Positions 15,705 to 60,165 of a DNA stretch of 64,000 nt are shown piece by piece. Source of the stretch: Echinicola rosea (GTDB lineage Bacteria; Bacteroidota; Bacteroidia; Cytophagales; Cyclobacteriaceae); NCBI RefSeq assembly GCF_005281475.1, contig NZ_CP040106.1, positions 4,306,501-4,370,500 on the forward strand, given 5' to 3'. How positions within the stretch are numbered: the stretch's first letter is position 1; each line of letters begins with the position of its first letter. The notes below the pieces were generated by a model, which did not search any database, was not told the DNA's origin, and saw only the letters and a list, made by a program, of their open reading frames with translations. Made by a program: the position numbers and the translations under genes.

Positions 15705-15778
15705 GGCGAGGTAGCTCAGTTGGTTAGAGCGCAGGATTCATAACCCTGAGGTCACGGGTTCAACTCCCGTCCTCGCTA
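15705..15778 (+). tRNA. tRNA-Met (CAT)
   Basis: The cloverleaf is complete: acceptor GGCGAGG/CCTCGCT (first pair G-T), D-arm GCTC/GAGC, anticodon arm with loop TTCATAA, and T-arm ACGGG-TTCAACT-CCCGT with discriminator A. The anticodon CAT fits elongator Met; an Ile gene with modified C34 is possible but less likely from the overall resemblance. The variable loop is AGGTC. Its 3' half is repeated at 16198-16223 and 16643-16668 in the array that follows. Confidence 0.93.
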
Positions 15779-15841
15779 CAAAATGTGCAGGATTCCTATC
15801 CACCGCGAATGTATCAGATGATACCGCCGCACCAAACTCAT

Positions 15842-15871
15842 GCAAGGCTACCATTTTGGGAGCCTTTTTTC
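15842..15871 (+). terminator. terminator behind tRNA-Met, repeated in each unit
   Basis: AAGGCTACC/GGGAGCCTT with loop ATTTT and a T run forms a hairpin 64 bases after the tRNA. The same hairpin occurs in unit 2 (about 16287-16316) and unit 3 (about 16732-16761). The TTG that could start a longer nuclease frame lies inside this hairpin, which argues against that start. Confidence 0.8.
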
Positions 15872-15900
15872 TTTTGTTCTTCTTTTTTATCTTTTCTGAC

Positions 15901-16167
15901 ATGACTCCGCTTTTTTCAGTTTACGTTTTATTCTCTCCCTCCTATGGGAAAACCTATACCGGAATGACTTCCGACTTGATCAATCGCTTCCATTCGCATA
16001 ATTCCTTTGCCAAAAAAGGGTTTACCGTCAAGTACAGGCCCTGGATAATGATCCATGTGGAATACTTCCACCATAAATCCAATGCATTGCGTCGTGAAAA
16101 GGAACTTAAATCCGGCAAAGGCAGGGAATGGATTAAACAACACATCCTACCATTATACACGAATTAA
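15901..16167 (+). CDS. GIY-YIG nuclease family protein, copy 1
   Basis: The 88-residue protein is a stand-alone GIY-YIG (URI-type) domain. The motif strands read VYVLF and YTGMT, followed by the conserved Arg in LINRFHSHN, a Glu in MIHVEYF, and the KELKSGKGREWI helix. The family cuts DNA through a single metal ion; single-domain members of this size are common in Bacteroidota and their role is unclear. The ATG at 15901 is chosen because the only longer start is a TTG inside a terminator hairpin followed by poly-Phe. There is no obvious promoter apart from read-through from tRNA-Met. The second copy at 16346 is identical. Confidence 0.85.
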   Translation: MTPLFSVYVLFSPSYGKTYTGMTSDLINRFHSHNSFAKKGFTVKYRPWIMIHVEYFHHKSNALRREKELKSGKGREWIKQHILPLYTN

Positions 16168-16183
16168 CGCTGCAGGATTCATA

Positions 16184-16197
16184 TCCGCCGCGGCGGA
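16184..16197. repeat. GC palindrome TCCGCCGCGGCGGA in unit 1
   Basis: This perfect 14-base palindrome replaces the anticodon-stem and variable-loop bases of the tRNA-like fragment. The same palindrome occurs at 16629-16642 and, extended to 16 bases, at 52880-52895. Confidence 0.8.
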
Positions 16198-16223
16198 CAC
16201 GGGTTCAACTCCCGTCCTCGCTA

Positions 16224-16668
16224 CAAAATGTGCAGGATTCCTATACACCGCGAATGTATCAGATGATACCGCCGCACCAAACTCATGCAAGGCTACCATT
16301 TTGGGAGCCTTTTTTCTTTTGTTCTTCTTTTTTATCTTTTCTGACATGACTCCGCTTTTTTCAGTTTACGTTTTATTCTCTCCCTCCTATGGGAAAACCT
16401 ATACCGGAATGACTTCCGACTTGATCAATCGCTTCCATTCGCATAATTCCTTTGCCAAAAAAGGGTTTACCGTCAAGTACAGGCCCTGGATAATGATCCA
16501 TGTGGAATACTTCCACCATAAATCCAATGCATTGCGTCGTGAAAAGGAACTTAAATCCGGCAAAGGCAGGGAATGGATTAAACAACACATCCTACCATTA
16601 TACACGAATTAACGCTGCAGGATTCATATCCGCCGCGGCGGACACGGGTTCAACTCCCGTCCTCGCTA
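16224..16668 (+). repeat. 445-bp tandem unit 2
   Basis: This is the second complete unit, with the same order of elements as unit 1 and one base difference noticed (A at 16245). It ends with the same 26-base tRNA-Met 3' segment. The near-identity points to recent duplication or gene conversion. Confidence 0.92.
16346..16612 (+). CDS. GIY-YIG nuclease family protein, copy 2
   Basis: This gene encodes the same 88 residues as copy 1, with no base difference seen in the frame. The longer frame that can be drawn from 16055 through unit 1 into this gene reads the tRNA fragment and terminator as protein and is rejected. Context and function are as for copy 1: a single-domain GIY-YIG nuclease sitting between tRNA-Met fragments. 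Identical copies suggest very recent amplification or ongoing homogenisation. Confidence 0.85.
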   Translation: MTPLFSVYVLFSPSYGKTYTGMTSDLINRFHSHNSFAKKGFTVKYRPWIMIHVEYFHHKSNALRREKELKSGKGREWIKQHILPLYTN

Positions 16669-16767
16669 CAAAATGTGCAGGATTCCTATCCACCGCGAAT
16701 GTATCAGATGATACCGCCGCACCAAACTCATGCAAGGCTACCATTTTGGGAGCCTTTTTTCTTTTGT
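16669..16767 (+). repeat. tandem unit 3, truncated
   Basis: The third unit starts like the others and keeps the anticodon-arm fragment and terminator hairpin, but identity ends at 16767 within the T-rich stretch behind the terminator. No nuclease gene follows; the next bases are unrelated. It marks the right boundary of the array. Confidence 0.88.
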
Positions 16768-17280
16768 ACATCTTGTTATCGTTTATTGGCATGGTGCAAT
16801 TGGTTACATTTTACTGGATCAAGCCATAATTCTGGGGAGCGATGAATTTCTTTATTTATCGGGAAATTGATACGTCAACAAAGCTCACAGGTGCAAAGCA
16901 ATTATAAATTCCTTTCAGTGCAGATTCAACATGCACGGGTGCCTTTGGGACTTAATGGTATTTTTATTCATCCATGGTTTTACCATAAGGAAAATTCGCT
17001 GTCCCCAACGTTCAGGTCCCAATTCATACGCTAAAATATGATTGTTCAAACAACACAAAACAATAAGCTTTATCTTACAGTACTGGCCAGCTACTGGTGA
17101 TTAAATGATGCTTACCTTCTATCAATCCCATAAAAATGGAACTGTACCTAAAGCTTTATCTTACAGTGTGTTTCGCCTTATTCACCTCTCAAATAAGCGA
17201 AACTGACGATTATTTTATTTTCTGTTGCTTGTAATATAGTGAAATTTAGCATATCACCATGCCTCATCAAAAAAATATTG
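16768..17280. other. gene-free spacer with a diverged family A copy
   Basis: No coding frame is supported. The stretch around 16845-17010 matches family A in pieces: TTTATCGG, then GCAATTATAAATTCCTTTCA, then ATGCACGGGTGCCTTTGGGAC, then TTTTACCATAAGGAAAA and GCTGTCC. The segment AAGCTTTATCTTACAGT occurs twice (about 17071 and 17150). No promoter or RNA gene is recognised in the rest. Confidence 0.5.
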
Positions 17281-59822: not shown

Positions 59823-60165
59823 TTAATTGAGTCAGAGACTCAAAGCTTGCCAGTGCTGGGGCAGAGACCCAGCACAACCCGGGGAGTCAGAGTCTCAATT
59901 CTTCAACGTGTTGGAGCAGAGACCCAGCACACCCCAGTTACCTCCTCACTCCGGCGGGAAGGAATCAATTTTGTACTTCCCTGATTAGTGTTGACCGGAT
60001 TACTATTAGTTTTCATTACCAATTATTGTAATCGCTAGTCATTTACTAAAATCCTATTGTGTTTCTCTTTGCTCCATAATAACCCCAACTAACCTCCCCT
60101 TAAAGGGAGGATTTGTCTCAAGTCTCAATACTCATATCTCACATATCCATACACACATCTCTCTA
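59823..60165 (+). repeat. family C spacer repeat, copy 2
   Basis: This is the second copy of the spacer described at 55920. It has the same hairpin (59853-59875) and an additional degenerate hairpin copy (GTGTTGGA to CCCAGCAC, about 59908-59930). At 60093-60110 the GC palindrome of copy 1 is replaced by CCTCCCCTTAAAGGGAGG. It lies between the susD and pectate lyase genes. Confidence 0.8.

Follow-up and report, generated by a model that had tools for sequence, protein, structure and literature searches.

tRNA 3′ ends are common integration sites, and tRNA-targeted integrative elements, which carry a tyrosine integrase, bring with them a repeated tRNA 3′ end that keeps the tRNA whole. REP/BIME elements pair a single nuclease gene with bordering palindromes and gene-less copies, and their RAYT transposases are HUH enzymes. 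Mitochondrial endonuclease elements duplicate the end of a host gene, and double-hairpin elements are mobile palindromes in structured RNA genes. Slx1 is a repair enzyme that works with Slx4 on branched DNA. We compare with these systems a tandem array found behind the elongator tRNA-Met gene of Echinicola rosea (Bacteroidota, Cyclobacteriaceae), whose full units each carry a gene for a small GIY-YIG nuclease, pieces of the tRNA and a palindrome. The array lies in a stretch of 64,000 nucleotides, called the window here (assembly GCF_005281475.1, contig NZ_CP040106.1, positions 4,306,501 to 4,370,500 of the forward strand). By a narrow measure we favor viewing it as one of a family of minimal selfish elements, each a nuclease plus a palindrome, that are anchored in Bacteroidota tRNA genes and spread or amplify by break repair between tRNA repeats.

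The repeated tRNA 3′ end is common to our array and to tRNA-targeted integrative elements, but here GIY-YIG is the sole gene, and the small palindrome-bearing units stand in tandem and are sometimes reversed. A nuclease gene, palindromes and gene-less copies are likewise shared with REP/RAYT, whereas the enzyme is GIY-YIG and the palindromes lie within tRNA copies. As in the mitochondrial endonuclease and double-hairpin elements, the carried copy keeps the host gene whole; those elements are however organellar, and are not tRNA-dedicated bacterial tandem arrays. By profile and by fold the window protein is closest to Slx1 and UPF0213, neither of which is known to us as an element of this kind. 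We found no description of tRNA-linked arrays of small GIY-YIG genes in the open-access literature (subscription journals and preprints were outside the search), and we know of no counterpart to the palindrome-bearing tRNA copies. By analogy, the nearest experimental precedent is SegB of the T-even phages, a GIY-YIG enzyme that is reported to be required for tandem amplification of the tRNA-segB segment (PMC13096335). The likeness is one of description: a small intron-less GIY-YIG gene adjoins tRNAs, and its product amplifies the tRNA and its own gene via break repair (PMC13096335). SegB is phage-borne and accompanies whole tRNAs, while here the tRNA copy is broken and contains a palindrome, each clade keeps to an isotype, and the arrays are fixed in chromosomes.

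The window array begins within an intact elongator tRNA-Met gene, the only full-length one that a search of the genome returned, and Tandem Repeats Finder gives it a period of 445 bp across 15753-16774 with 99% matches. Its features, in window coordinates, are as follows.

15705..15779, + strand: intact elongator tRNA-Met (CAT), the anchor (ARAGORN; Rfam RF00005, 70.7 bits)
15753..16197, + strand: unit 1, 445 bp, from tRNA position 48 to the palindrome end (sequence, Tandem Repeats Finder)
16198..16642, + strand: unit 2, 445 bp (sequence, Tandem Repeats Finder)
16643..16767, + strand: truncated third unit, comprising tRNA 3′ end, head remnant and terminator (sequence; divergence starts at 16768)
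15787..15801, 16232-16246 and 16677-16691, + strand: degenerate anticodon-arm remnant at the unit head (direct repeat family D3)
15844..15870, about 16289-16315 and about 16734-16760, + strand: terminator-like hairpin and T run (sequence; stem search)
15901..16167, + strand: GIY-YIG nuclease gene copy 1, 88 amino acids (PF01541, 3.5e-14; fold)
16346..16612, + strand: GIY-YIG nuclease gene copy 2, identical DNA (PF01541; sequence comparison)
16172..16183 and 16617-16628, + strand: GCAGGATTCATA, the 5′ half of the tRNA anticodon arm, to A37 (repeat search, sequence)
16184..16197 and 16629-16642, + strand: perfect 14-bp palindrome TCCGCCGCGGCGGA, replacing tRNA positions 38-47 (repeat search; covariation in relatives)
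16198..16224 and 16643-16669, + strand: last 27 nucleotides of tRNA-Met, copied behind each full unit (repeat search, sequence)

A unit therefore runs from the last 27 nucleotides of the tRNA through the degenerate remnant, the terminator, the nuclease gene, GCAGGATTCATA and the palindrome TCCGCCGCGGCGGA to the next tRNA 3′ end. A single base (15800/16245) distinguishes unit 1 from unit 2. A first-pass annotation, made from the letters alone, had described two full 445-bp units and a truncated third behind tRNA-Met, with a terminator and an 88-codon GIY-YIG gene per unit, an anticodon-arm piece and 14-base palindrome closing each full unit, a degenerate arm remnant heading it, and two seemingly identical genes. 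Period, coordinates and the Pfam match bear this description out, with three head remnants and with nuclease genes identical in DNA; the palindrome is a stand-in for ten tRNA bases, and the tRNA 3′ piece, given there as 26 bases, has 27. This 27-nucleotide repeat plus the terminator leaves tRNA-Met whole, a trait of tRNA-targeted integrative elements, although the unit has space for the GIY-YIG gene alone and no integrase gene of its own. The only known RNA family above its Rfam cut-off in the array is tRNA; weak tmRNA matches (22.3 and 15.9 bits, cut-off 47) are located on the tRNA 3′ copies. An assembly artefact, which the annotation had named as a danger, is rejected because the genome is a single 6.06-Mb contig, arrays recur across many genomes, and the 14 copies in one relative (G096) differ from one another. 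Repeat identity together with recurrence in other genomes also excludes a chance array.

Relatives of the nuclease were followed in other genomes, where G000 denotes the window's genome, other G numbers the genomes of relatives, and L numbers loci. A GIY-YIG match was present in 161 of 196 genomes drawn from the window's family and in 196 of 296 drawn from the phylum Bacteroidota, eight of the latter belonging to the family. For an unselected count every match in eight family genomes was followed, merging contig G128:C6 with its C1 copy. tRNA genes accompany 58 of the 65 matches and 26 of the 33 loci, with isotype Met, Val, Asp, Asn, Ala, Leu, Arg, Thr, Pro or Cys; chance closeness, expected to place about 2% within 1.5 kb (39 tRNAs in the 6.06-Mb window genome), is rejected. 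The search of Cyclobacteriaceae that the first-pass annotation had proposed thus finds the protein at tRNA genes, on the 5′ side at some reversed loci, and the random scatter without tRNA fragments that it had set against its own idea did not occur. At the 26 loci the nuclease gene sits at its presumed target without an intron or intein, as free-standing homing endonucleases do, and 14 of them hold more than one copy, versus none of the seven loci off tRNAs. Six of those seven fall in a clade of proteins of about 100 amino acids beside repeats, labeled 'none' below; the other is a GIY-YIG stretch within a long open frame. In this last case (L039, G047:C1:414795-415016) the stretch is in frame within 922 amino acids, and the flanking sequence may be that of a type I restriction R subunit.

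Among the 29 best relatives' loci (L005-L033) an elongator or initiator tRNA-Met lies in the fetched stretch for 26 and about 2 kb upstream, in an extended stretch (L166), for one more; an intact tRNA accompanies 27 of the 29. The two others are L022, with only a full-length pseudo-tRNA bearing the palindrome and nothing further in stretches L064 and L167, and L008, at a contig edge. Outside the family a tRNA was found in 23 of 27 first stretches and in 24 after refetching, counts that are biased upward because the loci were ranked by likeness to tRNA-linked sequences; the remaining three comprise one tRNA 3′ half only, one stretch with no tRNA within it and one contig edge.

Units range in size from about 315 to 470 bp. 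In G096 the 14 units, each about 346 bp long, follow tRNA-Asp, and the same tRNA is preceded (L057) by an array of 78-bp gene-less units, each a tRNA 5′ half plus palindrome; the tRNA-Val locus of G121 (L060) follows the same plan, and gene-less units of 110 bp stand behind tRNA-Met in G120 (L030). Polarity is reversed at Arg, Leu and Ser loci (L090, L067, L163, L165), where a broken 5′ half is followed by the gene and then by the intact tRNA. In the window's genome a 5′ unit that lacks the gene and bears palindrome TCCCGACGGCTGTCGGGA stands ahead of tRNA-Ala (L141, G000:C1:2192233-2192377), and a second tRNA-anchored nuclease unit is located at tRNA-Leu(TAA) (L004, G000:C1:1115886-1116116), with a 68-nucleotide repeat comprising tRNA 3′ end and terminator. 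Palindromes bordering the gene and gene-less copies are thus both present, a RAYT/REP trait.

The palindrome is the constant mark of these junctions. Of the 29 Met-clade family loci, 24 have it after the gene, in the form TCCG..CGGA. For covariation, 26 pieces were chosen by hand from 53 distinct pieces found with a search pattern that demanded TCCG..CGGA; this selection makes the outer four pairs invariant, and information comes from the three inner pairs alone. At inner pairs 5 and 6, T-A takes the place of C-G in 2 and 3 pieces respectively, with one mismatch altogether, while pair 7 has four pair types and 8 unpaired cases. Paired cells amount to 95.1% (88.9% when shuffled), and double-change cells at the inner pairs number 17 (5.2 shuffled). 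Nine of the 26 aligned Met pieces are perfect palindromes and 19 have a loop of at most 2 bases. At other isotypes the palindromes are TCCCGA..TCGGGA, TTCCGA..TCGGAA, TCCTGA..TCAGGA or GGCGC..GCGCC, and the outer bases vary between clades. In two copies, one of Val (L060) and one of Ala (L141), a palindrome occupies the exact place of the anticodon arm, and other copies have altered T arms, D arms or D loops. The Leu locus L162, with palindromes in the D and T arms and not in the anticodon arm, does not fit the pattern. In 45 of 46 rows the tRNA 3′ piece of a unit resembles its own tRNA more than it resembles the other tRNAs on average; the chance match L013_1177 stays in this count, at least one of the 53 pieces being of that sort. 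Relatives strongly uphold the first-pass idea of an element that sits at a tRNA, carries pieces of it and encodes a nuclease. They give no such support to its suggestion that the tRNA 3′ half serves as attachment site: what marks the junction throughout is a palindrome within one of the tRNA arms, and some relatives have the reversed order.

The units at L008, L013 and L015 keep an AGCAG..CTGC-type T arm, unlike the functional tRNA-Met there (AGGGG..CCCC) and like the tRNA of other species; the element may have replaced the tRNA 3′ half at these three loci.

The only Pfam match of the 88-residue window protein is PF01541, with no HUH-type (Y1) transposase. Across an alignment of 55 relatives Y8, Y19, G21, R29, H33, W48, E66 and K70 are invariant; we take both tyrosines, the arginine, the histidine and the glutamate to be the catalytic positions of I-TevI. 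The nearest solved structures by profile are UPF0213 proteins, next Slx1 and next I-TevI (1zg2, 1ywl, 7cq2, 7wme, 6seh). An AlphaFold2 model (mean pLDDT 94.2) best matches Slx1 and UPF0213 (4xlg, 7cq2, 1zg2), with query-length TM-scores of 0.53-0.69 in thirteen matches of probability 1.00. The ratio of nonsynonymous to synonymous divergence (dN/dS) is 0.03-0.16 in five of seven pairs, the computable ones, the remaining two being saturated, and several nuclease genes in the draw of 196 family genomes have stop codons within them. Sequence comparison shows constraint on the protein and on the palindrome alike.

Within the family, clades of the nuclease are dedicated to tRNA isotypes. On a tree of 96 proteins (80 different) labeled with the tRNA isotype or 'none', the 13 labels need 12 changes, which is the minimum, against a mean of 53.6 when shuffled. 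The tree does not include eleven truncated or decayed copies, 13 of the 14 Asp copies, any array copy from the third onward, or L004, in which the open frame extends across tRNAs. Labels were set manually at ten loci for which the ARAGORN result was a pseudo-tRNA, a downstream or neighboring tRNA, or no intact tRNA at all.

Presence is patchy. Twelve complete genomes without a strong Met-type match (best E 9e-13 or weaker) were inspected: seven have empty sites, with tRNA and terminator and no element, three have palindrome or gene relics (L144, L147, L148), and two have tRNA copies with altered D loops (L146, L151). At L151 (G141:C1:3659901-3660623) the altered tRNA-Met copies follow an intact tRNA-Met as tandem repeats spaced 162 bp apart, with no nuclease gene nearby; L146 likewise has tRNA-Met copies of this sort, and the arm change differs in kind from that of the palindrome units. 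One pair of genomes is a mosaic. The nuclease genes of G000 and G190 are separated by 2 differences in 267 bases and by 1 in 55 synonymous sites (synonymous divergence, dS, 0.018), whereas four neighbor genes have about 70 synonymous differences in 215 sites (dS 0.14-1.26; Fisher 2e-7; the infC row, out of frame, was excluded). At the level of sequence this mosaic agrees with transfer, or with homing, from one species to the other.

The sequences themselves show how the element is built, its place at tRNA genes, the dedication of clades to isotypes within the family, constraint, arrays and relics, and a single mosaic between species. In the explanation that we favor, we infer DNA cleavage, its site and a repair route. 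The nuclease would recognize its cognate tRNA gene, or the palindrome, or both (the palindrome being read either as a palindromic sequence or as a cruciform extruded from it), and break the DNA there, the palindrome acting as its signal. The break would then be repaired by recombination, with homology supplied by the duplicated tRNA half and the terminator, and the element would thereby be copied into element-free tRNA genes. Repair between the same repeats would lengthen or shorten tandem arrays and could also lead to loss, and gene-less mini-units would presumably be moved in trans. Because the unit carries the tRNA piece that lies beyond the junction, the tRNA would stay intact after each event, and an essential single-copy tRNA could thus be used as a target.

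Several results weigh against this explanation. Carriers retain the intact tRNA, the presumed target, and their escape from cutting is unexplained; for this reason, and because palindrome-bearing tRNA copies lack a known counterpart, we set the elements apart from a plain homing endonuclease element. The nearest fold is that of Slx1 and UPF0213 and not that of a proven homing enzyme. No relative of the window protein was found in phage and plasmid collections, and with no match in either of these two collections, a phage or plasmid vehicle is rejected. One of the five covariation measures does not favor the palindrome, further pair types being 5 (5.7 shuffled). Ten other genome pairs, judged by blastn alignments and not by synonymous sites, have no excess of element over flank similarity; G000-G190 alone stands out among eleven pairs, and transfer as a general rule is unsupported. 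The isotype rule is weakened throughout the phylum: with phylum rows added (one row per locus, two further fragments dropped, 24 outside rows labeled by hand), the tree of 94 rows and 14 labels needs 20 changes (minimum 13, shuffled 53.7). For each of the seven Met rows from outside, the nearest family row is also a Met row, but among the 24 outside rows as a whole just 11 have a nearest family row of the same isotype. From the family and phylum counts together it follows that a nuclease lineage retains its tRNA over long times yet can switch.

Each rival explanation leaves one main feature unexplained, be it a palindrome mobilizer, a tRNA cleaver with decoy, passive duplication or a guard. 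The strongest of them, which we still consider unlikely, takes the lead from nucleases away from tRNAs. A sister clade of proteins of about 100 amino acids (8 rows, support 97) lies beside repeats, most of them visibly palindromic; its tRNA-free genes are at L003, L046, L065, L070, L077, L079, L087 and L091, with repeats that begin GTCATTGCGA, GTCATTCCTG and CCGGATCAAGTCCGG. There are 34 copies of the repeat GTCATTGCGA..GAAGCAATC in G190 and 6 in the window's genome (control pattern 0), and none in two of the eight genomes; most of the 34 have a different central stem from the copies beside the gene. TCCCGA..TCGGGA palindromes are above control in all eight genomes (6-64 versus 0-6). These observations suggest a wider partnership between such nucleases and palindromes, and the clade is possibly a GIY-YIG counterpart of RAYT/REP. 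A structure-specific nuclease of this REP/RAYT-like kind might act on extruded palindromes anywhere, hitting tRNA arms as single-stranded hairpins and leaving tRNA copies as by-products with no homing. The Slx1 (a branched-DNA nuclease) and UPF0213 folds and profiles, the dispersed GTCATTGCGA repeats and the excess in eight genomes all suit it. Dedication to isotypes within the family instead suggests recognition of a particular tRNA sequence, and the outer palindrome bases differ among clades, which also counts against this rival.

In an RNA-level explanation the protein would cleave its cognate tRNA, and the arm-altered pseudo-tRNA would be a decoy or RNA antitoxin, comparable to tandem-repeat type III toxin-antitoxin systems. 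The anticodon arm is altered in many loci, a few pseudo-tRNAs are full-length (L022, L029), terminators separate the units, and isotype dedication is compatible with tRNA recognition. The pseudo-tRNAs are however mostly half copies unable to form a tRNA, perfect and short-loop Met palindromes are more natural for DNA, two Met pseudo-tRNAs lack the palindrome stem when their minimum-energy folds as RNA are predicted, and the protein resembles DNA nucleases; we regard the explanation as improbable. A little more improbable still is that a host repair protein hitchhikes in arrays made by ordinary unequal recombination between tRNA repeats. Similarity to UPF0213, which to our knowledge is not a mobile protein, and the apparently vertical history of most close pairs would agree with it, but it would not predict the anchoring of 26 of 33 loci at tRNAs, multiple copies at 14 of 26 loci versus 0 of 7, or covarying palindromes. 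A host-useful guard, in which arrays of altered tRNA ends lure or block island and phage integrases that target tRNA 3′ ends, is very improbable: although arrays offer many such ends and 3 of 12 sequences of one relative alignment weakly match the PADLOC candidate model PDC-S14, reversed (5′-side) versions offer no extra 3′ ends, the window protein has no PADLOC match, presence is patchy and copies decay.

More broadly, and with rather less conviction than for the family itself, we propose that nuclease-only mobile elements are widespread in Bacteroidota, with isotype-dedicated GIY-YIG lineages multiplying palindrome-marked broken tRNA copies on either side of an intact tRNA without a transposase, recombinase or reverse transcriptase, and with a sister branch acting likewise on dispersed palindromes, as a class not described before. 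If this is so, many small GIY-YIG proteins of the phylum (matched in 196 of 296 genomes) are engines of tRNA-anchored selfish elements, and the broken palindrome-bearing tRNA copies beside intact tRNA genes find an explanation, as some dispersed palindromes find a testable origin. REP-like repeats would then have GIY-YIG as a second class of enzyme behind them, a set of natural nucleases linked to different tRNA genes would be available, and the selfish use of an essential single-copy gene as an anchor without host death would become testable.

Elsewhere in the window, two tRNA-Thr(TGT) genes stand in tandem at 1820-2013, and a 55-bp tandem repeat of 1.9 copies, apparently with no relation to the array, lies at 59829-59935.
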